Assembly (NCBI GenBank): GCA_039619475.1
Contig: CM077115.1
Coordinates: 43,224,685-43,288,684, forward strand
Source: Icerya purchasi
Taxonomy: Eukaryota > Arthropoda > Insecta > Hemiptera > Monophlebidae
Direction: 5' to 3'
DNA: 64,000 nt
Of the stretch, positions 20,401-53,135 are shown piece after piece. Position 1 is the first letter of the stretch, and each line of letters begins with the position of its first letter. Position numbers and translations under genes: made by a program. The notes beneath the pieces are model-generated. The model was not told the origin of the DNA and searched no databases. It was given only the letters and a program-made list of their open reading frames with translations.

Positions 20401-23400
20401 ACTGCGATCGGCCTGCTGACGTTGGATATTAAAGGCGCCTTTGATAACTGTTCGTGGCCAGTCTTATTCCACAAAATTAGAGCACTCAGGCTTGATTATA
20501 GAATAATCTCAATTTTAAGACAATACTTAGATTCAAGAACTATTAAATTTATTTACGAACATCAAACATATTTTCAAAATGTTACTCGCGGATGCCCGCA
20601 AGGATCGATTTTGGGCCCGATTTTTTGGAATTTGTATATTTCAGACTTATCGTTGATGGAGTTCCCGTCGGCAGTAACCAGATATTTCTATGCAGATGAT
20701 CTAGCATTCGCGGTCACTTCTAACCATCGTCCCTCCATTTGTAAATACTTCAAGATTACAATCAACAATATTTTAACCTATATGGAAAAACATCTACAGT
20801 TGGACGAAAACAAGACTAATTTATTAATCATGCACAGGAAACGAAAAAGGGACTACTACAATTCGCTACATCTCTCTATACCGAACTTTAAAATTAATAT
20901 CGTCGAATCACTGAAATATCTTGGTATTACATTAGACTGTCGCTACAGTTTTAATCAACATTTCAAAAATTTGTCCAGTAAAGCTACAACGGTTCTAAAT
21001 AAATTGCACTCCGTGTCTGGACGCACGTAGGGGATGAGCACTAAACACCGTTTAATAATTTATAATATGCTAGTTGTTCCATTATTCACGTACTGCGTAT
21101 TTATGTTTGAAGAGGCTTTAAAGCGTAAAAGCATTCAGGAAGTACTAGTTAAATCCCAACGGAAATTTCTTTTGTTTATTCTCCGCGCGCATAGAACTAC
21201 TTCCGGTGATGCGTTGCGAACAATAGCAGGACAATTGCCACTGCATTCCGTATTGCAGCATAAAATTTTGTATTTCAAAGGGTTAAATAATCTCAATTTG
21301 GAGTTGGATCTAAACAATAGATTTATTGAAATGCAAAATAGCTGGAACAATAGCTCAACTGGAAGATTAACATTTAGTTTCGTCCCCGAGGTTAAAACCA
21401 ATCCAATCAAAATTAATAATATTTAATACGTATGTGACGCAATTTCTTACTGGACATGGTAGATTTCAAAGTTATCTGCACCGTTTCCATCTAGCAGACA
21501 CCAATTTGTGTTCCTGTGGAGATGCTCCTGAAACTGTCACCCATATCGTTAATGAGTGCGCCAAATGGAAATTCTTGTTTAAAGACGTAAATTGTTTTCC
21601 GTTAAACAACGATAATTTATCAAAATTCCTGCACGCGGCGAATTTTATCATGACTTCCAAATATTCGGATGTTGAAGATTTTTCATTTAATGTATAATTT
21701 TATTTTAATTTTTATATCGGTTAATTTTTGTCTTTTTCATTTTCTTTTTATTGTTTCCAATCCATGAGGTGTTCATTCAACTGAGATACTCATGGCTATG
21801 TTTCAATTACTATGTAATTATGTTATTATTCACCAAATAAATAAATAAAAAAAAAAAAAATGTGCACCTATAAAGAACAAATAATTTTCTGTGAGCTGGC
21901 AAGGATTTTTATTACGTATTTACAGTACAATCTTCTTTATCCGCTAACATTGTCCCGTTTCTTCGGATTAGTAGATTACTGGGAATATTAAATAAGTTTC
22001 ATGTTTTCATTGATAAAAATTTCTGCAAACATGTGTGTAATGTTGCGCTGTTTTTTTATTTTTTATTTTTGGTAAAATATGGAGAATTTTTTTTTTTTTC
22101 TTCAAAGCTTTGAATTATAGCTGTCATGCAGGTTTGCAATTATTAGTATCTATAAAATTAATTTCCATGCTTTTATTTGGATGCCAAAGGTACATTATAA
22201 ATCGTCATATTATTCTATAAGGGAAATTTAGATATAATTTTTTGGTACAATTCAAAGACAAAATTTAGATTTGGCAATTAGTAAGCTTACAACTGAGTGT
22301 GTTATATTCGGTTAATTTATTATATGCAATCGTGCTATTGCATGTGGTTCGTGGAGAACGGTTGAATCAGTTTCTTTTCATAGAAAGAAAGTCTCGTATA
22401 AACCGATGTGCCAGAATTTATTTTAATTTCCCATTTTTGCCTACTAATTTTTAAGACATAACCGAAAAACGATTTCGGGATGATTGTCGCAACATCGGTG
22501 TTAAACCTACGCAGATAAGAATTGATGAATAGGATATATATAGCTGTATAAATTGAATATAACTCTGACCAAACACATCGCTTTGAGGAACAGGCGTTGT
22601 ATAATTGGGTCCAAGTATGAAGATCTCCATTTCCCACATATCTGAAACGCGTTCTAGCTTCTATGTAAAGCAAGGTAAATTTAAAAAATTTTCCTAGTAG
22701 TAGTGCATGAAGTCAGAAAACTTTGTTAAGAGGTTGGCCTCCGTGGAGAAGGACAGTTAATAATGAAGAAAGGAGAGTAGCTTGAATAACACGGTCGTAA
22801 GCGAAGGAAAAGCTTCGTAATATGAGACTTTCTATAGTTTTTAACATGGTGTACAAAATCGGCCTGTCTAGTGCATTATTTAATTCTATGATTGTAATCG
22901 ATTTTTTCTTCCCCAGTTATAGGGAGATACACGAAGTAGAAATGATCGGTTATATTAATGTGAGATTTGGACGGGTTCCTTACATTTTTTACAACCCGTT
23001 CTTTATAATTTCGTGAAAATTTAGGTTATTTGTAAATCCTCCTCCTCTTGTATTTATATGTATAAAATTTGGTCCTTCGGACTTCGCCATAGGAGCACTT
23101 TTAAACTTCCGGATGATAGTTTTTCTAAATACTTTCAGAAAAGTAAATTTCAATTGCTTATCATTCTTAAAGATATATATATATATATACGGTTTTTTTA
23201 TTATAATTTAAATTACATATTTCGTAACTATTTTTCACATTACTTCTGACGCAAGAATGCCGTTGTAATTAGTAGTATTATATTGTTTTTTTTCCAAATA
23301 CTTAAATATTTTGAAATATTCATTTAGCAATTACACTCGTAAGTTATCTAAACCCAATAATTTCTTCGCAGATTATTGCAATTTCGGATCGCTCTTTTAT

Positions 23401-29400: not shown

Positions 29401-32400
29401 TATTGGACCTCTGGATCTAATTAAAGATCTGACTCCGGGGTCGTATGTTTTTATCGCATTCAGTGCTCCATATTGTCTCCGGGTAATATTTGCTTCTTAT
29501 TCCCGAATACGGCAATAACGTAAGCTAATACGTTTTTATTCCTTAGTCATATGTTGCGTAAAACAGAATGAGTATTACTTATAATTAAATTTAGTTTTTT
29601 ACAAAATTCAAGCGAGCGAGAAGTCTATTGGTATTAGAACTCTTCTGGCTGCGCTTCTCATCACTGACGGTCAGATAGTAGCACTATTGCAACATGCGCG
29701 ATGAAATCTCTCCTATAAGGAACATTCTGCTTGATGCTGAAATTTTTCATCTAACATTTTATGTGGATAATCATAAAAGAATTCTTTAGCTATGTGCCAT
29801 TGGCATCTAGTGTTGGTACGTAAGCGCAAATTGTATACACTAGTGCGTATTGTAAATTAGATTTAACGTGCGTTTCTCGATACCAATTGAATTGGCAACC
29901 AAAAAAGAGTTTTCTGATTATCTCTTAACATTCGTATTTTCCGTAATCCAAGTTAAAAATGAAATTCTCTAAATTTTTCTGAAATTTTTCAGGCGCCTAA
30001 CAAGATGCGGTCATCTGGGGGTGGTGCTGGTTATGACGATGCGGAATAGTCGATTTGTAGAGAACTTTTTTTTAGCCCTTTCTATGATTACAATAGGTAG
30101 TAGGAATGCTAAACAGACCCGCTTAGTCGTACATCTAACTGTTGAACTCGGCTATTTGCTTCATTCTATCCGAGGACGACTATGTTACACAATGTAGCAC
30201 CGTTCGTTGTGCAAAATTTTTTTGGTTAAAACTTGCCACTACCGCCTTAGTCTTTTTATCGTGGGGCTTTTAAAGAAAAATGTAGACGAGATAGAAAGGA
30301 TAAGGAACTCGGAAAGGGAAGGGTACAGAATATGAGAGGAGGAGGAGGGAAGAGAAGTATACAGGGTGCGGCAGCATAACTTTCTTTTTTAAAACGCGCC
30401 ACTTTTTTTCTACTGAATTTTGTTAAAGAGAAATAATAATAACAGAAAATCGAAATAACATACTCTAGATCCCCCATTGGAGCAATCTGTATGCTTCTTC
30501 CCTTGCAGTTTTATTTCGATTTTCTGATATTATGTCTCTTTAATAAATTTAGTAGAAAAAGAGTGGCGCATTTTAAAATATATAGGAAGTTATGCTGCCG
30601 CATCGTGTTTAACCGGGTTTATACGGGCGAAAAAGATGAGATGGGAAAATTGAGTAGAAGTATTGAAGAAAATAACGGAATCGAAGGGTAGTAGTTCATT
30701 ATTTCATTACACAGCTTTACGAGGTTTGGTCAGTGACACTTTTAGTTAATTGCGCTCATTGCTTTATATTAAAATGAGTGCGCGTGTTATATGTAAATGG
30801 TAGAGGGTCGTTCCTGAAAGGAATGTATTTTAATTCACCAATTATAAAAAATTTTCCGAATTCTTAAACAGCAAAGAACCGGGAAAACCCTTCTAGGTGC
30901 TTAATAAGCGTACAGATATAAATATTATCTAATTTATTTTCAGGGAAAATAATATGAAGATTGTTGATACGTCTACCATACGTAATTACTCTATAAGATA
31001 TAAGAAGTTACCTTTCGTCATAACGGAAACGATAGAGAAGCATGTTAAATTAGCCGAACAGAATTTAGACGAGTAAGTAATTTTATTTCTCCGAATTCGG
31101 TTGCTGCTTGTATTTTTATTGTGTAATTCGTACTGTAATCCGAGCGTGTGTTTGTAAGTGGAATTTTCGAAAATTTTTTACAAATACTTAAATTTTTCTA
31201 TTTTATTTGTTGAAATTTATTTCGATACAGTTTTGCAGCAGATTAATTGGTATAGTATAATGCGTGGAAATCTTCTTTTAACCTCTATTAAGTTTTGTAT
31301 AAAATAATTCAGATTTTTAGTATATAGCACGCTTCTGTTTTATAGTTCATACACGTACACATATAATGAGATATTTTAATATTTGAAATTTCCGTAATCG
31401 ACCGTATCTTTTTAAACATCGCCAGTAACGGAGATTATCAGAGGCTACGATGTAAAATAACATTATTTAGTAAACTGGATGATGATAAAAACGAAAATTA
31501 ATTAATATTAATCGGCCGTAGTTCGACGACTAAAGCGCGTTTTTGATTGCAAGATATTGGTAATTTAAACAAAACGTAAAATTAAATTTTGTTCTGCGAC
31601 TGACGTATAGGGCGAATTAGTGAACATGCCCCTATTTATTTGTAATTTATTATACTTAATGAAATAAGCGTCATTTTTGTGCTTAGAATTTTTCTTTACA
31701 AATCACTCGTAGAATATGCACTGGAGTATTGAAACTAGGTTTGTTCCTATTGAATAAAATTGAATAAGAGCAAAATGAAACTCTTCTCAATATAGAGGAA
31801 TTAATATATGTGACGGTCGCTGAGAAAAGGTACATAGTGTGTCAGAAATGTGGTCTTGACTTAACAACGGTTTCGGACACTTTTTCAGCATGCTCTTTAA
31901 CGTGAAATAGATGTCAAACACAGGTGAAAATAAATTTTTTCCCGTTGTAAATCGTAGTTGTATGTTTAAAATTACCACCTTAAAGTGTATTATACTTCGA
32001 AACTTTAAACGCGTTTTTCTCGATTAATTACTTTCTGACACTGTGCATCTTTTCTCAGCGACCGTCACATATGCAGGGCAGTGTAATCATATAGTGCGTT
32101 AGAGAATTCTAAGCGATGTCCTGCTTTTGGATCTATACATCTTAAGCAGAACAGTTATGATTAAAAAACTTCAAATACGAATAAGGAAGTGGAAATGTAA
32201 ATAAATTTTAAATAAATCCATACCTGTTTGTTAATACTTATAAATATAAAATAAATAATTACTTTGATAACAAACGAAAATAAGTATTAAATTACTTTAA
32301 TAAATTAAAATAACTTACTTTAGAAACGTTGTCGGGCATAACCCATCATTAATTAACAATATAGAGCGAACTCAAATAAAACATGGGCTATGACCGAAAG

Positions 32401-35400
32401 CGTTTCTAGAGTAAGTTATTTCGATTTCTATTAAAGTGTAAATTATTTTATACTTATTTTCGTTTGTTAATCGGAGGTATTTATTTATTTTATATTTAAA
32501 GGAGGGGAATGTGAGATGGGATTTTCGTTCTCATTCAAACGTCGAGCCAAAGCTGTAGGAAAGAAATGAAAAATAAATCCGAGTACACACTTTGGAATTC
32601 GTAGAAAAAGTGGGAAATAAAAGCGTAAAATAGCATTCATATCAGTTAACACCCAATGTAATTGAACAACGAAAATAAACAATCATATTTAATTTTTACT
32701 CTTACCAGCTTCTAACGGAGTACGAAAAATAGGTGAATACTTACGTAGGAATGGACTAAATGTACGTGAGAACCGTTATAGTCCTCGTGGGGAAACAGAA
32801 ACTGCTGATCACATTACCTCTGATGTTATACGATCAGATTAGAGACGTCAACAACAAACTACCAGACTTTAATGATCCCAGTATACTAAACAAGTTCTTT
32901 TACTTTTAACGGTCTGCACCCAAAATTTAAAATTCCCTAGTTAGTGGTATTTTAATTACACACATATATGTAGTTTTTTAAGTGCGTGCGTATATGCACG
33001 TGTGTGAAAACTTTGCAATGAGAAAGAACGTATGTAGGCTACGATCCAGTTATTACCTATTTTGTAGTATTAATATTATCATTTTCAATATCACTACTCT
33101 TTCTTTATTTTTTTATTTATTTTTTTATTTTTTTATTATCATCATTATTATTATTCTTACTGGCCAACGATCATACCACGTTGAATACACCGGTTCTCTC
33201 GTCCAATCACCGAAGTTAAGCAACGTTGGGCCAGGCTTAATGCTTAGACTGGAGAAACCTGATATTTTATAGTCCGTCGTCGCGGTAGCCTAGTGGCTAG
33301 ATCGTTTGGCTTTCGTTCGGAAGTCTTTAATTTGATCCCAGACGATGACAAAATATGCGCGCTAGTTTTTGGCCGGCAAAAAGCATGGAAACTTGGTTGC
33401 GCTTTGATTTATGTGCTTCTCAATTATGCTGCTTCTATCCTCTAATTCTCCTATGAATTAGAAGATAATCTCCTACTTGTTATCGAGTGAGAATAGAAGA
33501 TACTACCATTTTTATTTTCTTTCGCCTTCTTTTTCTTTTTGTTAGTATTACCCTTACTATTATTAGTAACTTTTTCTTTAGTATAACTATTATGTAATTA
33601 TTGCTATTATTATTATTATTAATATTATTTATTTATTTATTAGTTGTATATGTAATACCTATAGCTTTGTGGCTGATTATAACATTTTACAATCATGAAA
33701 TTTTATAAATAATTAATATGTTTACATATTTTTTTAGCGACTTAATTAAATCACCTACACACGCGCACGCCCATACATACACACGCATATACATATATAC
33801 AGCGCGTGCGCGCACGTGTGTGTGTGTGTGTATTCAAAAAACATATTTATAACTTATAGCCTTCATCTTCAAACTTGCCTTTTAAATGTTCATTAAAATT
33901 CAGATCAACTTTTAAAGATAATTGTAAACTATTTTTTTCCTAAACGTTCTGTCTCCCGTATGAAATAAATGAATCTCACCACTCTGAGCAGTTAGATTTC
34001 TTCGCTTGAGTGCAATTGAAAGAGATCAGTTGGTATAGTGTTGTGTATTCGTTCAAGATATACCAAACACCTGTGTTTCCTTAGAATACTGAACCCAGGC
34101 ACCCTGAATCCTCTCTCAGCTGATATATGTTTATCGCTCATTTTTCCATTTATCAAGTTACATACTAATATTATTGGAACTATTTTCCTTTTACTAATGA
34201 AACTATGTTTTGCTAGGTATTGTAACGTTTCATTATAATTAAAATTATTTATTGTTCTTTAAACAGTTTGTAAAATATGTATGCTTCATGAATTGTATTT
34301 GTATCTTTTCAAGCGTGTATATACTACTCTTCGAGGATCGATTCCATACTGTACTAGCGTATTCAATTTGCGATCTAACAAATGCATAGCAAATAACTAA
34401 AAATATAGTATAAAAAATAAATGCTAAAATAACAAACTAATACGTAAGTAACAAAATTAATATAAGAATATCAAACTTGTTATCTTAGGAACGTTTTCGG
34501 GCATAACCCATCTTCAGCTAAAATAATCGAACTAAATTAAAAACATAGTGTAACAGTGAACACAATTTAAAACTTCACTTTGAAGCTAAAATAAAATAAA
34601 ATTAAAAATAAATTAAAATGAAAATAACATGAAACATAGCACACATGTGAACCGAACTACAGTCTAACACATATTGAAACTAAAAATTAAATCACAAGTT
34701 TAAAACGGTAATTAATGTGAAATAAAAACAAGAAATAAAATTGAAATAAAAAATTAAAATAAAAAATGAATGATAAACATATTTGGAGATTAGATAAGAA
34801 ATAAATAATAGAACCTGTCTAAGAAGGGCTAGTTTAAAATTTTTTATTAAGGTATTATATTAAAGAGTGGGTTTTGATTGTGTGGAGTTTGGTCATTTAA
34901 TATATTGTTTTTGTGTTTATTTATGTAATAGTTTTCAGCTATGTTCATTAGGTTTCCTTTATTGTATGTGGCTAATACTGTAACTGTTTTTTCTAGTGAA
35001 TCAGGTGTATGTTTATTTTTTATTAAGTGTTCTGCATATGTGGATTTTTCCGTTTCGTTATTTGTAAATGATTTAATGTGTTCTAGGTATCTATATTTTA
35101 TTTTCCTACCAGTTTGACCGATGTATGCCTTTTCACAATTATTACAGTTTATTTTGTATATACCACTATTTTCAAATATATTATTATTTTCTTTATTCAT
35201 AGTAATTATTTTGTTTTTTAGGGTATTGTTTGTTTTATAAGCTATTTGTAATCCTAGTTTTTTAAATATATTACTTAATTTGTATATATTTTTATTTATG
35301 AAAGTGAATGTTATAAATTTGTTTTTGTCTTTGTTAATATCGTTATTTTTTGGTTTATATTTTAATTTTAATTTTATTTTTTGTATTAATTTTTCTATTA

Positions 35401-38400
35401 TGTGTTCAGTGTAACCATTATTTATTGCAATTGTTTTTAATATTTTTATTTCATTTTGTTTTTTGTTTTGATTCATGGGGGTGTTTAGTAATCTATTTAT
35501 GGCGTGTATGAAGTATGCGTGTTTATGTTGATTTGGATGGTTTGATGTTTTGTTTATTATAGTGTCGGTTGTTGTTTGTTTTCTGTGTATATTGTATTGT
35601 AATTTATTGGTAGTTTTATTTATTATGATGTCTAAGAAGTTAATTTTATTGTTTATCTCTTTTTCCATAGTGTATTGTATGTTTTCATGTATTTTATTTA
35701 AATCATTTAAAATGTTATTTTCAGTGTTATTGTTGTTTTCATCAAAAATAACTAAAGTATCATCTACATATCTGATATATGTTTTTATATTATATTTTTT
35801 AATTAAATTTTCAATATATCTTTCTTCGAGATGTTGTAGAAATATTTCACTTAAAATACCTGATAAGGGGGATCCCATACCTAAACCACTATTTTGGGTA
35901 TATGTAATATTATTGAATTTGAAATAATTTTGTTCAATGAGTATTTTTATTAAATTGATTAATTGGTTATTATATATATTATTATTTGAAACATTTATTG
36001 ATTTTTTGATTATTTCTATTGTCTCATTAATTGGTATGTTAGTGTATAAATTGGTTATATCGTAAGAGATTATTTTAGTTTTATTGTTTATAGGTATGTT
36101 TTGTAATTTATCAAAGACATTTTGTCTATTTCTGATTATATATTTATCATTTAAAGATATATTTTGTTTTAATATATTGGATATGTATTTGGCTAATTTA
36201 TATCCAGGGGCAGTTGTGTAATTTACTAAAGGTCTAATTGGTATATTTGGTTTATGTATTTTTAATAGTGGGTTGAGAGTTGGTGCTTTGGGGTTCATAT
36301 TTATAAAGAATTTGGCGATATTGTTATTTATTAGTAAATTTGATTCTTTTATTATTTTTCTTATTTTAGCCTGATATTTGTTTGTGGGATCGATTTTTGT
36401 CGTATTTATGTTATTTTCTTTTATAAAATTATCAGTTTTTTGAATAAGTTCATTTTTATTTATTATAATTATACTATTTCCTTTATCAGCTTTAGCGGTA
36501 ACAGCATTTTCTTGGTTTAATTTATTATTTATATTTTTGATGGTTTTTTGTATTTTTAAATGGTCTGTGTTTGTTTTGTTTTTCTTTATAATGTTTAAAA
36601 TTGCGTGTGTTGCTTCGGCTCTTGTAATAGTTTGTTCATTTGTTGGTAATTTTTGTATTGCATTTTCAGTTTCTATTATTAAATTTTCATATTGTTTTTT
36701 ATGTGATGTGTTTAAATTATATTTATAACCTAAATTTAAAATGTTGACTTCATCATTTGTAAATTTTATGGTAGTTAAGTTTACAGTTCTTGGATAAAAA
36801 TCAAATTTATTATTAATTGTAGGTTTAGGTATTTGTTGTTTTGCTAAAGTATTTAATTTTTTATTTATTATTTGTTGTTTTTGGTATATAATGGGTTTAA
36901 TTTTGTCATTAATTTTTTCAAAATATAAATTTAGAATTTCATAGTTTATATTATTAACTAATTGTAAATGTATTTTTAAGAGTTGTATATTGATTTTATT
37001 CTTTTTGTTATATAGGTAATTTATTTCATTTTTGATCCAAAATATTTCAGCTTGTTTTTTGGTTTTTATTGCTACCGGAGATTTGTTTTTTATTTTTATT
37101 GTTGCATATTTTGGTATTATATTCATTTGTAGGCATTTTTTATTGAAGTAGATGTTATTAATAGTTTTTTTCAATTTTAATGTTAAGTAATAATATTTTT
37201 GGATATGTATTGCTATATCAGCAGAATTCATTAAAGAATATTTTATCATCCTGTTTGTTAGTAACTATAGTATAAAAAATAAATGCTAAAATAACAAACT
37301 AATACGTAAGTAACAAAATTAATATAAGAATATCAAACTTGTTATCTTAGGAACGTTTTCGGGCATAACCCATCTTCAGCTAAAATAATCGAACTAAATT
37401 AAAAACATAGTGTAACAGTGAACACAATTTAAAACTTCACTTTGAAGCTAAAATAAAATAAAATTAAAAATAAATTAAAATGAAAATAACATGAAACATA
37501 GCACACATGTGAACCGAACTACAGTCTAACACATATTGAAACTAAAAATTAAATCACAAGTTTAAAACGGTAATTAATGTGAAATAAAAACAAGAAATAA
37601 AATTGAAATAAAAAATTAAAATAAAAAATGAATGATAAACATATTTGGAGATTAGATAAGAAATAAATAATAGAACCTGTCTAAGAAGGGCTAGTTTAAA
37701 ATTTTTTATTAAGGTATTATATTAAAGAGTGGGTTTTGATTGTGTGGAGTTTGGTCATTTAATATATTGTTTTTGTGTTTATTTATGTAATAGTTTTCAG
37801 CTATGTTCATTAGGTTTCCTTTATTGTATGTGGCTAATACTGTAACTGTTTTTTCTAGTGAATCAGGTGTATGTTTATTTTTTATTAAGTGTTCTGCATA
37901 TGTGGATTTTTCCGTTTCGTTATTTGTAAATGATTTAATGTGTTCTAGGTATCTATATTTTATTTTCCTACCAGTTTGACCGATGTATGCCTTTTCACAA
38001 TTATTACAGTTTATTTTGTATATACCACTATTTTCAAATATATTATTATTTTCTTTATTCATAGTAATTATTTTGTTTTTTAGGGTATTGTTTGTTTTAT
38101 AAGCTATTTGTAATCCTAGTTTTTTAAATATATTACTTAATTTGTATATATTTTTATTTATGAAAGTGAATGTTATAAATTTGTTTTTGTCTTTGTTAAT
38201 ATCGTTATTTTTTGGTTTATATTTTAATTTTAATTTTATTTTTTGTATTAATTTTTCTATTATGTGTTCAGTGTAACCATTATTTATTGCAATTGTTTTT
38301 AATATTTTTATTTCATTTTGTTTTTTGTTTTGATTCATGGGGGTGTTTAGTAATCTATTTATGGCGTGTATGAAGTATGCGTGTTTATGTTGATTTGGAT

Positions 38401-41400
38401 GGTTTGATGTTTTGTTTATTATAGTGTCGGTTGTTGTTTGTTTTCTGTGTATATTGTATTGTAATTTATTGGTAGTTTTATTTATTATGATGTCTAAGAA
38501 GTTAATTTTATTGTTTATCTCTTTTTCCATAGTGTATTGTATGTTTTCATGTATTTTATTTAAATCATTTAAAATGTTATTTTCAGTGTTATTGTTGTTT
38601 TCATCAAAAATAACTAAAGTATCATCTACATATCTGATATATGTTTTTATATTATATTTTTTAATTAAATTTTCAATATATCTTTCTTCGAGATGTTGTA
38701 GAAATATTTCACTTAAAATACCTGATAAGGGGGATCCCATACCTAAACCACTATTTTGGGTATATGTAATATTATTGAATTTGAAATAATTTTGTTCAAT
38801 GAGTATTTTTATTAAATTGATTAATTGGTTATTATATATATTATTATTTGAAACATTTATTGATTTTTTGATTATTTCTATTGTCTCATTAATTGGTATG
38901 TTAGTGTATAAATTGGTTATATCGTAAGAGATTATTTTAGTTTTATTGTTTATAGGTATGTTTTGTAATTTATCAAAGACATTTTGTCTATTTCTGATTA
39001 TATATTTATCATTTAAAGATATATTTTGTTTTAATATATTGGATATGTATTTGGCTAATTTATATCCAGGGGCAGTTGTGTAATTTACTAAAGGTCTAAT
39101 TGGTATATTTGGTTTATGTATTTTTAATAGTGGGTTGAGAGTTGGTGCTTTGGGGTTCATATTTATAAAGAATTTGGCGATATTGTTATTTATTAGTAAA
39201 TTTGATTCTTTTATTATTTTTCTTATTTTAGCCTGATATTTGTTTGTGGGATCGATTTTTGTCGTATTTATGTTATTTTCTTTTATAAAATTATCAGTTT
39301 TTTGAATAAGTTCATTTTTATTTATTATAATTATACTATTTCCTTTATCAGCTTTAGCGGTAACAGCATTTTCTTGGTTTAATTTATTATTTATATTTTT
39401 GATGGTTTTTTGTATTTTTAAATGGTCTGTGTTTGTTTTGTTTTTCTTTATAATGTTTAAAATTGCGTGTGTTGCTTCGGCTCTTGTAATAGTTTGTTCA
39501 TTTGTTGGTAATTTTTGTATTGCATTTTCAGTTTCTATTATTAAATTTTCATATTGTTTTTTATGTGATGTGTTTAAATTATATTTATAACCTAAATTTA
39601 AAACGTTGACTTCATCATTTGTAAATTTTATGGTAGTTAAGTTTACAGTTCTTGGATAAAAATCAAATTTATTATTAATTGTAGGTTTAGGTATTTGTTG
39701 TTTTGCTAAAGTATTTAATTTTTTATTTATTATTTGTTGTTTTTGGTATATAATGGGTTTAATTTTGTCATTAATTTTTTCAAAATATAAATTTAGAATT
39801 TCATAGTTTATATTATTAACTAATTGTAAATGTATTTTTAAGAGTTGTATATTGATTTTATTCTTTTTGTTATATAGGTAATTTATTTCATTTTTGATCC
39901 AAAATATTTCAGCTTGTTTTTTGGTTTTTATTGCTACCGGAGATTTGTTTTTTATTTTTATTGTTGCATATTTTGGTATTATATTCATTTGTAGGCATTT
40001 TTTATTGAAGTAGATGTTATTAATAGTTTTTTTCAATTTTAATGTTAAGTAATAATATTTTTGGATATGTATTGCTATATCAGCAGAATTCATTAAAGAA
40101 TATTTTATCATCCTGTTTGTTAGTAACTATAGTATAAAAAATAAATGCTAAAATAACAAACTAATACGTAAGTAACAAAATTAATATAAGAATATCAAAC
40201 TTGTTATCTTAGGAACGTTTTCGGGCATAACCCATCTTCAGCTAAAATAATCGAACTAAATTAAAAACATAGTGTAACAGTGAACACAATTTAAAACTTC
40301 ACTTTGAAGCTAAAATAAAATAAAATTAAAAATAAATTAAAATGAAAATAACATGAAACATAGCACACATGTGAACCGAACTACAGTCTAACACATATTG
40401 AAACTAAAAATTAAATCACAAGTTTAAAACGGTAATTAATGTGAAATAAAAACAAGAAATAAAATTGAAATAAAAAATTAAAATAAAAAATGAATGATAA
40501 ACATATTTGGAGATTAGATAAGAAATAAATAATAGAACCTGTCTAAGAAGGGCTAGTTTAAAATTTTTTATTAAGGTATTATATTAAAGAGTGGGTTTTG
40601 ATTGTGTGGAGTTTGGTCATTTAATATATTGTTTTTGTGTTTATTTATGTAATAGTTTTCAGCTATGTTCATTAGGTTTCCTTTATTGTATGTGGCTAAT
40701 ACTGTAACTGTTTTTTCTAGTGAATCAGGTGTATGTTTATTTTTTATTAAGTGTTCTGCATATGTGGATTTTTCCGTTTCGTTATTTGTAAATGATTTAA
40801 TGTGTTCTAGGTATCTATATTTTATTTTCCTACCAGTTTGACCGATGTATGCCTTTTCACAATTATTACAGTTTATTTTGTATATACCACTATTTTCAAA
40901 TATATTATTATTTTCTTTATTCATAGTAATTATTTTGTTTTTTAGGGTATTGTTTGTTTTATAAGCTATTTGTAATCCTAGTTTTTTAAATATATTACTT
41001 AATTTGTATATATTTTTATTTATGAAAGTGAATGTTATAAATTTGTTTTTGTCTTTGTTAATATCGTTATTTTTTGGTTTATATTTTAATTTTAATTTTA
41101 TTTTTTGTATTAATTTTTCTATTATGTGTTCAGTGTAACCATTATTTATTGCAATTGTTTTTAATATTTTTATTTCATTTTGTTTTTTGTTTTGATTCAT
41201 GGGGGTGTTTAGTAATCTATTTATGGCGTGTATGAAGTATGCGTGTTTATGTTGATTTGGATGGTTTGATGTTTTGTTTATTATAGTGTCGGTTGTTGTT
41301 TGTTTTCTGTGTATATTGTATTGTAATTTATTGGTAGTTTTATTTATTATGATGTCTAAGAAGTTAATTTTATTGTTTATCTCTTTTTCCATAGTGTATT

Positions 41401-44400
41401 GTATGTTTTCATGTATTTTATTTAAATCATTTAAAATGTTATTTTCAGTGTTATTGTTGTTTTCATCAAAAATAACTAAAGTATCATCTACATATCTGAT
41501 ATATGTTTTTATATTATATTTTTTAATTAAATTTTCAATATATCTTTCTTCGAGATGTTGTAGAAATATTTCACTTAAAATACCTGATAAGGGGGATCCC
41601 ATACCTAAACCACTATTTTGGGTATATGTAATATTATTGAATTTGAAATAATTTTGTTCAATGAGTATTTTTATTAAATTGATTAATTGGTTATTATATA
41701 TATTATTATTTGAAACATTTATTGATTTTTTGATTATTTCTATTGTCTCATTAATTGGTATGTTAGTGTATAAATTGGTTATATCGTAAGAGATTATTTT
41801 AGTTTTATTGTTTATAGGTATGTTTTGTAATTTATCAAAGACATTTTGTCTATTTCTGATTATATATTTATCATTTAAAGATATATTTTGTTTTAATATA
41901 TTGGATATGTATTTGGCTAATTTATATCCAGGGGCAGTTGTGTAATTTACTAAAGGTCTAATTGGTATATTTGGTTTATGTATTTTTAATAGTGGGTTGA
42001 GAGTTGGTGCTTTGGGGTTCATATTTATAAAGAATTTGGCGATATTGTTATTTATTAGTAAATTTGATTCTTTTATTATTTTTCTTATTTTAGCCTGATA
42101 TTTGTTTGTGGGATCGATTTTTGTCGTATTTATGTTATTTTCTTTTATAAAATTATCAGTTTTTTGAATAAGTTCATTTTTATTTATTATAATTATACTA
42201 TTTCCTTTATCAGCTTTAGCGGTAACAGCATTTTCTTGGTTTAATTTATTATTTATATTTTTGATGGTTTTTTGTATTTTTAAATGGTCTGTGTTTGTTT
42301 TGTTTTTCTTTATAATGTTTAAAATTGCGTGTGTTGCTTCGGCTCTTGTAATAGTTTGTTCATTTGTTGGTAATTTTTGTATTGCATTTTCAGTTTCTAT
42401 TATTAAATTTTCATATTGTTTTTTATGTGATGTGTTTAAATTATATTTATAACCTAAATTTAAAACGTTGACTTCATCATTTGTAAATTTTATGGTAGTT
42501 AAGTTTACAGTTCTTGGATAAAAATCAAATTTATTATTAATTGTAGGTTTAGGTATTTGTTGTTTTGCTAAAGTATTTAATTTTTTATTTATTATTTGTT
42601 GTTTTTGGTATATAATGGGTTTAATTTTGTCATTAATTTTTTCAAAATATAAATTTAGAATTTCATAGTTTATATTATTAACTAATTGTAAATGTATTTT
42701 TAAGAGTTGTATATTGATTTTATTCTTTTTGTTATATAGGTAATTTATTTCATTTTTGATCCAAAATATTTCAGCTTGTTTTTTGGTTTTTATTGCTACC
42801 GGAGATTTGTTTTTTATTTTTATTGTTGCATATTTTGGTATTATATTCATTTGTAGGCATTTTTTATTGAAGTAGATGTTATTAATAGTTTTTTTCAATT
42901 TTAATGTTAAGTAATAATATTTTTGGATATGTATTGCTATATCAGCAGAATTCATTAAAGAATATTTTATCATCCTGTTTGTTAGTAACTATAGTATAAA
43001 AAATAAATGCTAAAATAACAAACTAATACGTAAGTAACAAAATTAATATAAGAATATCAAACTTGTTATCTTAGGAACGTTTTCGGGCATAACCCATCTT
43101 CAGCTAAAATAATCGAACTAAATTAAAAACATAGTGTAACAGTGAACACAATTTAAAACTTCACTTTGAAGCTAAAATAAAATAAAATTAAAAATAAATT
43201 AAAATGAAAATAACATGAAACATAGCACACATGTGAACCGAACTACAGTCTAACACATATTGAAACTAAAAATTAAATCACAAGTTTAAAACGGTAATTA
43301 ATGTGAAATAAAAACAAGAAATAAAATTGAAATAAAAAATTAAAATAAAAAATGAATGATAAACATATTTGGAGATTAGATAAGAAATAAATAATAGAAC
43401 CTGTCTAAGAAGGGCTAGTTTAAAATTTTTTATTAAGGTATTATATTAAAGAGTGGGTTTTGATTGTGTGGAGTTTGGTCATTTAATATATTGTTTTTGT
43501 GTTTATTTATGTAATAGTTTTCAGCTATGTTCATTAGGTTTCCTTTATTGTATGTGGCTAATACTGTAACTGTTTTTTCTAGTGAATCAGGTGTATGTTT
43601 ATTTTTTATTAAGTGTTCTGCATATGTGGATTTTTCCGTTTCGTTATTTGTAAATGATTTAATGTGTTCTAGGTATCTATATTTTATTTTCCTACCAGTT
43701 TGACCGATGTATGCCTTTTCACAATTATTACAGTTTATTTTGTATATACCACTATTTTCAAATATATTATTATTTTCTTTATTCATAGTAATTATTTTGT
43801 TTTTTAGGGTATTGTTTGTTTTATAAGCTATTTGTAATCCTAGTTTTTTAAATATATTACTTAATTTGTATATATTTTTATTTATGAAAGTGAATGTTAT
43901 AAATTTGTTTTTGTCTTTGTTAATATCGTTATTTTTTGGTTTATATTTTAATTTTAATTTTATTTTTTGTATTAATTTTTCTATTATGTGTTCAGTGTAA
44001 CCATTATTTATTGCAATTGTTTTTAATATTTTTATTTCATTTTGTTTTTTGTTTTGATTCATGGGGGTGTTTAGTAATCTATTTATGGCGTGTATGAAGT
44101 ATGCGTGTTTATGTTGATTTGGATGGTTTGATGTTTTGTTTATTATAGTGTCGGTTGTTGTTTGTTTTCTGTGTATATTGTATTGTAATTTATTGGTAGT
44201 TTTATTTATTATGATGTCTAAGAAGTTAATTTTATTGTTTATCTCTTTTTCCATAGTGTATTGTATGTTTTTATGTATTTTATTTAAATCATTTAAAATG
44301 TTATTTTCAGTGTTATTGTTGTTTTCATCAAAAATAACTAAAGTATCATCTACATATCTGATATATGTTTTTATATTATATTTTTTAATTAAATTTTCAA

Positions 44401-47400
44401 TATATCTTTCTTCGAGATGTTGTAGAAATATTTCACTTAAAATACCTGATAAGGGGGATCCCATACCTAAACCACTATTTTGGGTATATGTAATATTATT
44501 GAATTTGAAATAATTTTGTTCAATGAGTATTTTTATTAAATTGATTAATTGGTTATTATATATATTATTATTTGAAACATTTATTGATTTTTTGATTATT
44601 TCTATTGTCTCATTAATTGGTATGTTAGTGTATAAATTGGTTATATCGTAAGAGATTATTTTAGTTTTATTGTTTATAGGTATGTTTTGTAATTTATCAA
44701 AGACATTTTGTCTATTTCTGATTGTATATTTATCATTTAAAGATATATTTTGTTTTAATATATTGGATATGTATTTGGCTAATTTATATCCAGGGGCAGT
44801 TGTGTAATTTACTAAAGGTCTAATTGGTATATTTGGTTTATGTATTTTTAATAGTGGGTTGAGAGTTGGTGCTTTGGGGTTCATATTTATAAAGAATTTG
44901 GCGATATTGTTATTTATTAGTAAATTTGATTCTTTTATTATTTTTCTTATTTTAGCCTGATATTTGTTTGTGGGATCGATTTTTGTCGTATTTATGTTAT
45001 TTTCTTTTATAAAATTATCAGTTTTTTGAATAAGTTCATTTTTATTTATTATAATTATACTATTTCCTTTATCAGCTTTAGCGGTAACAGCATTTTCTTG
45101 GTTTAATTTATTATTTATATTTTTGATGGTTTTTTGTATTTTTAAATGGTCTGTGTTTGTTTTGTTTTTCTTTATAATGTTTAAAATTGCGTGTGTTGCT
45201 TCGGCTCTTGTAATAGTTTGTTCATTTGTTGGTAATTTTTGTATTGCATTTTCAGTTTCTATTATTAAATTTTCATATTGTTTTTTATGTGATGTGTTTA
45301 AATTATATTTATAACCTAAATTTAAAACGTTGACTTCATCATTTGTAAATTTTATGGTAGTTAAGTTTACAGTTCTTGGATAAAAATCAAATTTATTATT
45401 AATTGTAGGTTTAGGTATTTGTTGTTTTGCTAAAGTATTTAATTTTTTATTTATTATTTGTTGTTTTTGGTATATAATGGGTTTAATTTTGTCATTAATT
45501 TTTTCAAAATATAAATTTAGAATTTCATAGTTTATATTATTAACTAATTGTAAATGTATTTTTAAGAGTTGTATATTGATTTTATTCTTTTTGTTATATA
45601 GGTAATTTATTTCATTTTTGATCCAAAATATTTCAGCTTGTTTTTTGGTTTTTATTGCTACCGGAGATTTGTTTTTTATTTTTATTGTTGCATATTTTGG
45701 TATTATATTCATTTGTAGGCATTTTTTATTGAAGTAGATGTTATTAATAGTTTTTTTCAATTTTAATGTTAAGTAATAATATTTTTGGATATGTATTGCT
45801 ATATCAGCAGAATTCATTAAAGAATATTTTATCATCCTGTTTGTTAGTAACTATAGTATAAAAAATAAATGCTAAAATAACAAACTAATACGTAAGTAAC
45901 AAAATTAATATAAGAATATCAAACTTGTTATCTTAGGAACGTTTTCGGGCATAACCCATCTTCAGCTAAAATAATCGAACTAAATTAAAAACATAGTGTA
46001 ACAGTGAACACAATTTAAAACTTCACTTTGAAGCTAAAATAAAATAAAATTAAAAATAAATTAAAATGAAAATAACATGAAACATAGCACACATGTGAAC
46101 CGAACTACAGTCTAACACATATTGAAACTAAAAATTAAATCACAAGTTTAAAACGGTAATTAATGTGAAATAAAAACAAGAAATAAAATTGAAATAAAAA
46201 ATTAAAATAAAAAATGAATGATAAACATATTTGGAGATTAGATAAGAAATAAATAATAGAACCTGTCTAAGAAGGGCTAGTTTAAAATTTTTTATTAAGG
46301 TATTATATTAAAGAGTGGGTTTTGATTGTGTGGAGTTTGGTCATTTAATATATTGTTTTTGTGTTTATTTATGTAATAGTTTTCAGCTATGTTCATTAGG
46401 TTTCCTTTATTGTATGTGGCTAATACTGTAACTGTTTTTTCTAGTGAATCAGGTGTATGTTTATTTTTTATTAAGTGTTCTGCATATGTGGATTTTTCCG
46501 TTTCGTTATTTGTAAATGATTTAATGTGTTCTAGGTATCTATATTTTATTTTCCTACCAGTTTGACCGATGTATGCCTTTTCACAATTATTACAGTTTAT
46601 TTTGTATATACCACTATTTTCAAATATATTATTATTTTCTTTATTCATAGTAATTATTTTGTTTTTTAGGGTATTGTTTGTTTTATAAGCTATTTGTAAT
46701 CCTAGTTTTTTAAATATATTACTTAATTTGTATATATTTTTATTTATGAAAGTGAATGTTATAAATTTGTTTTTGTCTTTGTTAATATCGTTATTTTTTG
46801 GTTTATATTTTAATTTTAATTTTATTTTTTGTATTAATTTTTCTATTATGTGTTCAGTGTAACCATTATTTATTGCAATTGTTTTTAATATTTTTATTTC
46901 ATTTTGTTTTTTGTTTTGATTCATGGGGGTGTTTAGTAATCTATTTATGGCGTGTATGAAGTATGCGTGTTTATGTTGATTTGGATGGTTTGATGTTTTG
47001 TTTATTATAGTGTCGGTTGTTGTTTGTTTTCTGTGTATATTGTATTGTAATTTATTGGTAGTTTTATTTATTATGATGTCTAAGAAGTTAATTTTATTGT
47101 TTATCTCTTTTTCCATAGTGTATTGTATGTTTTTATGTATTTTATTTAAATCATTTAAAATGTTATTTTCAGTGTTATTGTTGTTTTCATCAAAAATAAC
47201 TAAAGTATCATCTACATATCTGATATATGTTTTTATATTATATTTTTTAATTAAATTTTCAATATATCTTTCTTCGAGATGTTGTAGAAATATTTCACTT
47301 AAAATACCTGATAAGGGGGATCCCATACCTAAACCACTATTTTGGGTATATGTAATATTATTGAATTTGAAATAATTTTGTTCAATGAGTATTTTTATTA

Positions 47401-50400
47401 AATTGATTAATTGGTTATTATATATATTATTATTTGAAACATTTATTGATTTTTTGATTATTTCTATTGTCTCATTAATTGGTATGTTAGTGTATAAATT
47501 GGTTATATCGTAAGAGATTATTTTAGTTTTATTGTTTATAGGTATGTTTTGTAATTTATCAAAGACATTTTGTCTATTTCTGATTGTATATTTATCATTT
47601 AAAGATATATTTTGTTTTAATATATTGGATATGTATTTGGCTAATTTATATCCAGGGGCAGTTGTGTAATTTACTAAAGGTCTAATTGGTATATTTGGTT
47701 TATGTATTTTTAATAGTGGGTTGAGAGTTGGTGCTTTGGGGTTCATATTTATAAAGAATTTGGCGATATTGTTATTTATTAGTAAATTTGATTCTTTTAT
47801 TATTTTTCTTATTTTAGCCTGATATTTGTTTGTGGGATCGATTTTTGTCGTATTTATGTTATTTTCTTTTATAAAATTATCAGTTTTTTGAATAAGTTCA
47901 TTTTTATTTATTATAATTATACTATTTCCTTTATCAGCTTTAGCGGTAACAGCATTTTCTTGGTTTAATTTATTATTTATATTTTTGATGGTTTTTTGTA
48001 TTTTTAAATGGTCTGTGTTTGTTTTGTTTTTCTTTATAATGTTTAAAATTGCGTGTGTTGCTTCGGCTCTTGTAATAGTTTGTTCATTTGTTGGTAATTT
48101 TTGTATTGCATTTTCAGTTTCTATTATTAAATTTTCATATTGTTTTTTATGTGATGTGTTTAAATTATATTTATAACCTAAATTTAAAACGTTGACTTCA
48201 TCATTTGTAAATTTTATGGTAGTTAAGTTTACAGTTCTTGGATAAAAATCAAATTTATTATTAATTGTAGGTTTAGGTATTTGTTGTTTTGCTAAAGTAT
48301 TTAATTTTTTATTTATTATTTGTTGTTTTTGGTATATAATGGGTTTAATTTTGTCATTAATTTTTTCAAAATATAAATTTAGAATTTCATAGTTTATATT
48401 ATTAACTAATTGTAAATGTATTTTTAAGAGTTGTATATTGATTTTATTCTTTTTGTTATATAGGTAATTTATTTCATTTTTGATCCAAAATATTTCAGCT
48501 TGTTTTTTGGTTTTTATTGCTACCGGAGATTTGTTTTTTATTTTTATTGTTGCATATTTTGGTATTATATTCATTTGTAGGCATTTTTTATTGAAGTAGA
48601 TGTTATTAATAGTTTTTTTCAATTTTAATGTTAAGTAATAATATTTTTGGATATGTATTGCTATATCAGCAGAATTCATTAAAGAATATTTTATCATCCT
48701 GTTTGTTAGTAACTATAGTATAAAAAATAAATGCTAAAATAACAAACTAATACGTAAGTAACAAAATTAATATAAGAATATCAAACTTGTTATCTTAGGA
48801 ACGTTTTCGGGCATAACCCATCTTCAGCTAAAATAATCGAACTAAATTAAAAACATAGTGTAACAGTGAACACAATTTAAAACTTCACTTTGAAGCTAAA
48901 ATAAAATAAAATTAAAAATAAATTAAAATGAAAATAACATGAAACATAGCACACATGTGAACCGAACTACAGTCTAACACATATTGAAACTAAAAATTAA
49001 ATCACAAGTTTAAAACGGTAATTAATGTGAAATAAAAACAAGAAATAAAATTGAAATAAAAAATTAAAATAAAAAATGAATGATAAACATATTTGGAGAT
49101 TAGATAAGAAATAAATAATAGAACCTGTCTAAGAAGGGCTAGTTTAAAATTTTTTATTAAGGTATTATATTAAAGAGTGGGTTTTGATTGTGTGGAGTTT
49201 GGTCATTTAATATATTGTTTTTGTGTTTATTTATGTAATAGTTTTCAGCTATGTTCATTAGGTTTCCTTTATTGTATGTGGCTAATACTGTAACTGTTTT
49301 TTCTAGTGAATCAGGTGTATGTTTATTTTTTATTAAGTGTTCTGCATATGTGGATTTTTCCGTTTCGTTATTTGTAAATGATTTAATGTGTTCTAGGTAT
49401 CTATATTTTATTTTCCTACCAGTTTGACCGATGTATGCCTTTTCACAATTATTACAGTTTATTTTGTATATACCACTATTTTCAAATATATTATTATTTT
49501 CTTTATTCATAGTAATTATTTTGTTTTTTAGGGTATTGTTTGTTTTATAAGCTATTTGTAATCCTAGTTTTTTAAATATATTACTTAATTTGTATATATT
49601 TTTATTTATGAAAGTGAATGTTATAAATTTGTTTTTGTCTTTGTTAATATCGTTATTTTTTGGTTTATATTTTAATTTTAATTTTATTTTTTGTATTAAT
49701 TTTTCTATTATGTGTTCAGTGTAACCATTATTTATTGCAATTGTTTTTAATATTTTTATTTCATTTTGTTTTTTGTTTTGATTCATGGGGGTGTTTAGTA
49801 ATCTATTTATGGCGTGTATGAAGTATGCGTGTTTATGTTGATTTGGATGGTTTGATGTTTTGTTTATTATAGTGTCGGTTGTTGTTTGTTTTCTGTGTAT
49901 ATTGTATTGTAATTTATTGGTAGTTTTATTTATTATGATGTCTAAGAAGTTAATTTTATTGTTTATCTCTTTTTCCATAGTGTATTGTATGTTTTTATGT
50001 ATTTTATTTAAATCATTTAAAATGTTATTTTCAGTGTTATTGTTGTTTTCATCAAAAATAACTAAAGTATCATCTACATATCTGATATATGTTTTTATAT
50101 TATATTTTTTAATTAAATTTTCAATATATCTTTCTTCGAGATGTTGTAGAAATATTTCACTTAAAATACCTGATAAGGGGGATCCCATACCTAAACCACT
50201 ATTTTGGGTATATGTAATATTATTGAATTTGAAATAATTTTGTTCAATGAGTATTTTTATTAAATTGATTAATTGGTTATTATATATATTATTATTTGAA
50301 ACATTTATTGATTTTTTGATTATTTCTATTGTCTCATTAATTGGTATGTTAGTGTATAAATTGGTTATATCGTAAGAGATTATTTTAGTTTTATTGTTTA

Positions 50401-52617
50401 TAGGTATGTTTTGTAATTTATCAAAGACATTTTGTCTATTTCTGATTGTATATTTATCATTTAAAGATATATTTTGTTTTAATATATTGGATATGTATTT
50501 GGCTAATTTATATCCAGGGGCAGTTGTGTAATTTACTAAAGGTCTAATTGGTATATTTGGTTTATGTATTTTTAATAGTGGGTTGAGAGTTGGTGCTTTG
50601 GGGTTCATATTTATAAAGAATTTGGCGATATTGTTATTTATTAGTAAATTTGATTCTTTTATTATTTTTCTTATTTTAGCCTGATATTTGTTTGTGGGAT
50701 CGATTTTTGTCGTATTTATGTTATTTTCTTTTATAAAATTATCAGTTTTTTGAATAAGTTCATTTTTATTTATTATAATTATACTATTTCCTTTATCAGC
50801 TTTAGCGGTAACAGCATTTTCTTGGTTTAATTTATTATTTATATTTTTGATAAATTCAATAATATTACATATACCCAAAATAGTGGTTTAGGTATGGGAT
50901 CCCCCTTATCAGGTATTTTAAGTGAAATATTTCTACAACATCTCGAAGAAAGATATATTGAAAATTTAATTAAAAAATATAATATAAAAACATATATCAG
51001 ATATGTAGATGATACTTTAGTTATTTTTGATGAAAACAACAATAACACTGAAAATAACATTTTAAATGATTTAAATAAAATACATAAAAACATACAATAC
51101 ACTATGGAAAAAGAGATAAACAATAAAATTAACTTCTTAGACATCATAATAAATAAAACTACCAATAAATTACAATACAATATACACAGAAAACAAACAA
51201 CAACCGACACTATAATAAACAAAACATCAAACCATCCAAATCAACATAAACACGCATACTTCATACACGCCATAAATAGATTACTAAACACCCCCATGAA
51301 TCAAAACAAAAAACAAAATGAAATAAAAATATTAAAAACAATTGCAATAAATAATGGTTACACTGAACACATAATAGAAAAATTAATACAAAAAATAAAA
51401 TTAAAATTAAAATATAAACCAAAAAATAACGATATTAACAAAGACAAAAACAAATTTATAACATTCACTTTCATAAATAAAAATATATACAAATTAAGTA
51501 ATATATTTAAAAAACTAGGATTACAAATAGCTTATAAAACAAACAATACCCTAAAAAACAAAATAATTACTATGAATAAAGAAAATAATAATATATTTGA
51601 AAATAGTGGTATATACAAAATAAACTGTAATAATTGTGAAAAGGCATACATCGGTCAAACTGGTAGGAAAATAAAATATAGATACCTAGAACACATTAAA
51701 TCATTTACAAATAACGAAACGGAAAAATCCACATATGCAGAACACTTAATAAAAAATAAACATACACCTGATTCACTAGAAAAAACAGTTACAGTATTAG
51801 CCACATACAATAAAGGAAACCTAATGAACATAGCTGAAAACTATTACATAAATAAACACAAAAACAATATATTAAATGACCAAACTCCACACAATCAAAA
51901 CCCACTCTTTAATATAATACCTTAATAAAAAATTTTAAACTAGCCCTTCTTAGACAGGTTCTATTATTTATTTCTTATCTAATCTCCAAATATGTTTATC
52001 ATTCATTTTTTATTTTAATTTTTTATTTCAATTTTATTTCTTGTTTTTATTTCACATTAATTACCGTTTTAAACTTGTGATTTAATTTTTAGTTTCAATA
52101 TGTGTTAGACTGTAGTTCGGTTCACATGTGTGCTATGTTTCATGTTATTTTCATTTTAATTTATTTTTAATTTTATTTTATTTTAGCTTCAAAGTGAAGT
52201 TTTAAATTGTGTTCACTGTTACACTATGTTTTTAATTTAGTTCGATTATTTTAGCTGAAGATGGGTTATGCCCGAAAACGTTCCTAAGATAACAAGTTTG
52301 ATATTCTTATATTAATTTTGTTACTTACGTATTAGTTTGTTATTTTAGCATTTATTTTTTATACTATAGTTACTAACAAACAGGATGATAAAATATTCTT
52401 TAATAAATAACTAAAAAGGTGAGCAACGAATAATATAATCCATAATATGATTCGCTTTGGATGTTATTTTCTCAATGTAAACCGTAAAACATACTTGAAA
52501 TTTAATACTTTACCTAGATCTTTTAGGTTTGTTACAGGATTTAAATTCTCGCCGTTTATTGAATAAATATAAAATACCTACGCAGTTACATTTCTTAATA
52601 CTATCTTCATTATTATC

Positions 52618-52652
<35 letters not shown>

Positions 52653-53135
52653 CATTATCATTATCATTATCATTATCATTATCATTATCATTATCATTAT
52701 CATTATCATTATCATTATCATTATCATTATCATTATCATTATCATTATCATTATCATTATCATTATCATTATCATTATCATTATCATTATCATTATCATT
52801 ATCATTATCATTATCATTATCATTATCATTATCATTATCATTATCATTATCATTATCATTATCATTAATGGTAGTGGTATAAATAATTGTTACCATTATT
52901 TTATATTATTTTTTATATTATACACTTTTCTTTAATTCACTTTCACGTCTGCTTGTTTGTCTGGAATCAAATCTGAGAAGCTCTGTTTAAAACATTTTCC
53001 GTCGATGAAAAATTCTAAAATTTTATAGAGACCTTTGTTTTGGATTACAATACAATAATCTAAGATTATTTTCGACATATACGCAGCGTATGTAAGATCT
53101 CTGAGGAATCAGGCCAAATATCTTCTTGTATATGT

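Follow-up and report, generated by a model that had tools for sequence, protein, structure and literature searches.

Head-to-head Penelope-like insertions in Icerya purchasi carry one tail and one target duplication

The window analysed is a 64,000-nucleotide stretch of the Icerya purchasi genome (assembly GCA_039619475.1, contig CM077115.1, forward-strand positions 43,224,685 to 43,288,684). It contains a block of 18,001 bp (34404–52404), made up of about six and a quarter copies of a Penelope-like element in two arms (Table 1). The left arm is formed by 5.75 head-to-tail units on the minus strand, five full and one truncated, with a period of exactly 2,862 bp. This is followed by the right arm, a 1,553-bp inverted partial copy containing unit positions 1346–2862 plus the first 36 nt of the next unit. 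Within the block the units differ at three positions only, and their number is given as assembled. The 13-mer AAATAACTAAAAA lies directly against both ends of the block, while no target duplication is present at the internal junctions. When flanks of 15 related insertions were paired at random, at most 8 bp were shared (1,863 draws), against the 13 found in the window; this control used 16-base pieces, the pieces of the real search being somewhat longer. A preliminary description of this DNA had recognised the duplication at the outer ends only and the five complete 800-codon reading frames, and both observations hold. It had also listed six 2862-bp units and one inverted copy: the period is as described, with the sixth unit truncated, and the inverted copy is present as a partial one.

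Table 1. Features of the repeat block, in window coordinates
Feature	Position	Strand	Remarks
Left copy of the 13-bp target duplication	34391..34403	.	exact match to 52405-52417
Unit 1	34404..37265	-	outermost; tailless end at 34404
Hammerhead-ribozyme-like motif	34483..34523	-	CTGAAGA...GAAA core; complementary arms fold as expected; recurs every 2,862 bp
Intact 800-aa ORF	34847..37249	-	RT + GIY-YIG endonuclease
Internal variants (block span)	35686..50448	.	sense positions 1580, 1128, 524
Unit 2	37266..40127	-	
Intact 800-aa ORF	37709..40111	-	
Unit 3	40128..42989	-	
Intact 800-aa ORF	40571..42973	-	
Unit 4	42990..45851	-	
Intact 800-aa ORF	43433..45835	-	
Unit 5	45852..48713	-	
Intact 800-aa ORF	46295..48697	-	
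Unit 6	48714..50851	-	truncated (unit positions 725-2862)
Second, inverted arm	50852..52368	+	unit positions 1346-2862
Hammerhead-like motif in inverted arm	52249..52289	+	from sequence
36-nt tail, right end	52369..52404	+	unit positions 1-36
Right copy of the 13-bp target duplication	52405..52417	.	exact match to 34391-34403

The proteins encoded by the five reading frames vary at three amino acids. The 22 best relatives are 35–43% identical across 95–100% of the protein, and the residues of the reverse transcriptase (RT) and GIY-YIG domains are conserved in the alignment with relatives. The GIY and YIG residues, together with downstream conserved R, H, E and N columns, are common to the window protein and 15 relatives. 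A profile match to TERT (3du5) has an E-value of 7.7e-5, with three other reverse transcriptases scoring better, and when a predicted model (mean pLDDT 86.9) was compared using Foldseek, the six best matches were all telomerase structures. The whole 800-residue window protein has no Pfam match at 0.001, including to RT and GIY-YIG; a truncated reading frame of the window matches the Pfam RT domain (5.6e-12), and among 16 aligned members RT is matched in eight and GIY-YIG in five, the window protein being in neither group. From the conserved residues, the telomerase reverse-transcriptase folds and the Pfam matches of aligned members, the element is classed as an endonuclease-bearing Penelope-like element, by sequence features and predicted fold rather than by a tree. 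A metazoan retrozyme was ruled out by the 2,862-bp unit with its 800-residue reading frame, retrozymes having a short, non-coding hammerhead unit. Viral contigs searched for relatives gave five weak RT matches only (27–35% identity), which were left out of the analysis.

Each unit also contains a hammerhead-like motif; of 72 copies with exact flanks, 65 have the 34-nt core unaltered. Rfam reports no hammerhead match for the window motif, and an automatic hammerhead pattern scan of the window gave none either, we suppose because its pattern ended at the earliest base where a cut could occur; the motif was placed by direct inspection. In another insertion, c1_338 (pieces L028 and L030), all four pLTR copies read CTGATGA in place of CTGAAGA, which affects the base of the hammerhead core that is free to vary. 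Two isolated stretches of the window, separate from the rest of the element, match the motif in part (6292–6328 and 32320–32347, minus strand), the latter deviating from the core at several places.

For comparison, the assembly (1,103,370,081 bases in 41 contigs, with C1 at 601.7 Mb and C2 at 497.3 Mb) was searched with the protein. Of 7,995 candidates, 56 were scored, and the matches group into 20 places, including the window. Sixteen were read, leaving out 597, 115, 552 and 516; for one of the sixteen, c1_537, which is interrupted by a gap of N, the reading stops short of the right end, so that counts use 15 insertions. This first set was picked by matches to the reading frame, regardless of orientation, and heavily truncated insertions are under-represented in it, as the matches were to intact reading frames. 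A held-out set consists of 13 further insertions from DNA searches and the remaining reading-frame matches, the ends of which were read. Having been chosen for the presence of both strands, they test arm order, the tail rule and the duplication rather than the frequency of missing arms; places with matches on one strand only are outside both sets. The table of arm lengths, tails and joins and that of private variants were compiled by hand. The 15 measured insertions have a total size of 1.55 to 8.09 units, the largest blocks being 18–23 kb. The size of the window array, earlier called unusual, is not so within this genome: among the 15 insertions measured in full, four have an arm of at least three units, one of these four being 23.2 kb long.

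All 15 complete insertions are head-to-head, with the 3′ ends of the units facing outwards, and the held-out insertions have the minus arm to the left of the plus arm in 13 of 13. Exactly one tailed end (about 36 nt) and one tailless end are present in all 28 (15 of the first set and 13 held-out); were tails taken independently by each end at one half, the chance of this would be 2 to the power −28. At the ends counted as tailless in c1_204 and c1_31, 4 and 7 nt agree with the tail, nucleotides that are also part of the duplication, and the left end of c1_459 was re-read, a chance match having misplaced it. A single target duplication of 11–15 bp surrounds the whole block in 27 of the 28, in agreement with the earlier proposal that the window array was inserted as one block. 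In the first set the duplication is exact and 12–15 nt long in 14 of 15, these lengths being maximal matches that may include a base or bases common to the element end; the exception, c1_157, lies in poly-T. In the held-out set it is 11–15 nt long in 13 of 13. The preliminary description had missed the one-tail rule, and also that the inverted copy in the window forms the second arm of an insertion with the standard two-armed layout. AA is found immediately before the duplication on the tailless side in 17 versus 8 of 23 cases (p 0.022), a weak, post hoc result. In c1_374 (piece L025, around 7064–7090) and c1_459 (L064, around 119–143), the tailless end repeats the terminal 11–12 nt (TTTTTTATACT/A), as if the enzyme had restarted after a short copy.

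The block is a single Penelope-like insertion; probably, the 3′ ends of both cut strands primed the copying of RNA inwards and the resulting arms were joined mid-block. The element's own reverse transcriptase/GIY-YIG endonuclease would make a staggered cut with 3′ overhangs of about 12–13 nt. One strand would then start copying at a start site A, giving the tailless arm, while the other would start at a site B, which lies 36 nt closer to the 3′ end of the RNA, giving the tailed arm; the two inward-growing cDNA arms would be joined in the middle. For the long arm, the enzyme would have copied concatemeric, circular or terminally redundant RNA beyond one unit. Afterwards, local exchange or conversion may have spread two mutations across the three outermost units, or these mutations may have come from a second template. 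One cDNA for each strand of a staggered cut would lead to outward 3′ ends, one duplication and arbitrary join positions, as seen, and with priming from two strands the inverted copy would be the second cDNA and not a rearrangement. Where the two arms are unequal, the tailless one exceeds the other in length in 11 of 13 insertions (p 0.022), as if the enzyme starting nearer the 5′ end of the RNA had led. Inner arm ends are clustered near the pLTR/ORF start (11 of 30, where 2.3 are expected for an interval chosen post hoc), as expected for RNA 5′ ends.

Variants of the individual units can help to tell repeated copying apart from growth at a later stage. The difference between units is 0.041% within insertions and 0.51% between them, so both arms come from one source lineage and each insertion passed through one source sequence. 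In the window, the bases at sense positions 1580 and 1128 are derived in units 1–3 and ancestral in units 4–6; the inverted arm is ancestral at 1580, while 1128 is beyond its reach, and position 524 is derived in unit 1 only. The two derived bases of units 1–3 are missing from the other 15 arrays as well as from units 4–6. Among 41 listed matches, the T1128/G1580 haplotype is exact only in window units 1–3; the next score is shared by window units 4–6 and a small insertion at C2:81.77 Mb, which, from this search score and with its inner sequence unread, would carry the ancestral haplotype. The simplest reading of the pattern is that the mutations arose in place and then spread. As the two mutations are common only to the three outermost units, one uniform template without later change is ruled out. 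Rolling copying of one circular RNA was likewise rejected as the sole explanation for the window, since the linked variants split units 1–3 from units 4–6.

Under a less probable course of events, the insertion was at first small and two-armed, with about one unit per arm, and unequal exchange between its units later lengthened one arm. This would fit the contiguous outer units with common mutations, which are found in the window (units 1–3, with a haplotype seen nowhere else among the 41 listed matches) and in c1_328 (left units 1–2 and the outer two units on the right), and also the nine of 15 insertions in which no arm is longer than about 1.5 units. Against it stands c1_99, with 4.03 units in arms of 1.49 and 2.54, among which there are two indels and no substitutions. 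The largest array met, c1_537, also shows no substitution among 12 unit pieces compared on both sides of its gap. Larger arrays are not more varied internally (rho −0.33, p 0.23), a weak test because duplication itself lowers variation.

No substitution separates the units of the sibling array c1_99 from the outer two right-hand units of c1_328, and among the 41 listed matches, from which the fifth unit of c1_99 (with a long A insertion) is absent, their haplotype is exact only in these two insertions. Single-pass copying of a linear c1_328 transcript into c1_99 was disfavoured, as the haplotype extends over 2.54 units in c1_99 versus two adjacent units in c1_328; with 40 of 994 candidates scored, another donor is possible. 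The uniform arm of 2.54 units speaks for repeated copying, or for growth that preceded any substitution. In c1_557 (pieces L015–L017) the outermost units of both arms have G at position 2194 and all inner full units have A, which is predicted neither by simple growth nor by a single circle. The small insertion c2_7 has no substitution against an inner unit of c1_557. Of 13 private variants, eight are located in the outermost unit, where 3.9 would be expected (p 0.017, from the hand-made table). As judged from these sequences, several units were likely present at the birth of the insertions, and later exchange or conversion probably also acted, growth or conversion being either a rival explanation or a second step. 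The preliminary description had offered two options, a concatemeric RNA or subsequent growth; the first is favoured by c1_99 as regards several units at birth, and is excluded in the form of a single uniform template that did not change later.

The arm joins overlap by 0–4 bp in 13 of 15 insertions; one has 2 extra nucleotides and one a 9-bp overlap. In 11 of the 15, the arms are joined at unrelated unit positions at least 158 nt apart, while in the other four both arms end within 20 nt of each other (offsets of 11–20 nt; permutation p = 0.001). These four near-palindromic joins are what self-priming on antisense RNA would give, the cDNA folding back into a head-to-head repeat, as proposed in PMC3846280. 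As a general origin of the arms this is very improbable, given the 11 joins at unrelated positions and the arms that differ by about two units in c1_557 and about one in c2_429. Moreover, in all 28 insertions the outer ends begin at two different sites, separated by about 36 nt; copying of one arm from the other would not produce this. The near-coincident ends suggest that both arms reached the same RNA 5′ end, or that fold-back occurs in a minority of insertions, and they tell against independent arms, which do not predict them. That the array is an assembly artefact or has a wrong number of units is very improbable: despite the gap of N in c1_537 (piece L033, around 1345–1444), the assembly was made from PacBio HiFi reads with hifiasm (PMC11183206), identical runs in the window array reach at most about 9 kb by the variant positions, and the same layout is present in 27 other insertions.

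The literature already describes tandem copies, inverted pLTRs, target duplications, tails and hammerheads (PMC11167929, PMC3846280, PMC6431247 and PMC7229834); PMC12910113 names the pseudo-LTR, with no further structural detail in the sections consulted. The Poseidon/PAc element of Anolis carolinensis, as described in PMC11167929, resembles the present one in its tandem units with pseudo-LTRs, single reading frame for RT and GIY-YIG, hammerhead motif, AT-rich targets and two start sites bounding a tail of 30–40 nt. However, the tail is optional in PAc, whereas here every insertion read combines a tailed with a tailless end, and the hammerhead cut is located 26 bp inside the reading frame in PAc and is predicted about 100 nt upstream of the ATG here. 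In vitro, the anole protein cuts and extends both strands, with two RNA start sites that bound the tail and are used alike on either strand (PMC11167929). The present insertions fit priming from both cut strands at two such sites. As those experiments show no strand difference, they leave the rule of one start of each kind unexplained. A tentative and rather doubtful extension is a paired, telomerase-like machine, in which two enzymes would sit 36 nt apart on the RNA, one for each strand of the same staggered cut, each copying round and round and adding 2.86-kb repeats inwards from both sides as telomerase adds short ones.

The Pen2a element of Adineta vaga and its endonuclease-bearing kin (PMC3846280) share with our element the head-to-head copies, inverted pLTR and single reading frame, and have 8–10-bp target duplications and a 31-bp tail optionally on one inverted pLTR. 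The copies detailed there consist of about one unit plus pLTRs, or of partial tandems, compared to arms of up to 5.75 units and blocks of 18–23 kb here, although long tandem or inverted structures are mentioned for two families. The head-to-head arrangement was the most frequent, and self-priming on an antisense template was favoured by those authors (PMC3846280). Metazoan retrozymes, as presented in PMC7229834, are also tandem repeats of a hammerhead-bearing unit; their units are of a few hundred bp and non-autonomous, and circular RNA has been shown for them. An invariant one-tail rule and two-armed blocks of 18–23 kb with one duplication were not found in listings of open-licence papers, a scope outside which the primary Penelope papers of 1997–2005 lie, so that earlier statements may exist. 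What is new is the regularity and the scale, the class of element being already known. A scattered description, with optional tails and tandem or inverted copies, becomes a testable rule of two arms, one tail and one duplication. This rule speaks for a coupling of the priming on the two cut strands, and against fold-back as the general route. Penelope elements are relatives of telomerase, and the many near-identical insertions with legible ends in this genome inform their insertion mechanism.

Several other repeats are present in the window. A third copy of AAATAACTAAAAA is located at 17877, at the start of a LINE; no connection to the block was found and the match is probably due to chance. 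The LINE (17889–21030, plus strand) contains two overlapping reading frames of 276 and 773 residues, the latter with endonuclease and RT domains, which identifies it as a non-LTR element. A sequence resembling 5S rRNA (44.7 bits) lies at 33163–33274 on the plus strand; the stretch after it looks to us like a tRNA A box, so this may perhaps be a composite 5S/tRNA SINE. At 52612–52867, 195 bp to the right of the array, about 43 copies of ATTATC are found.
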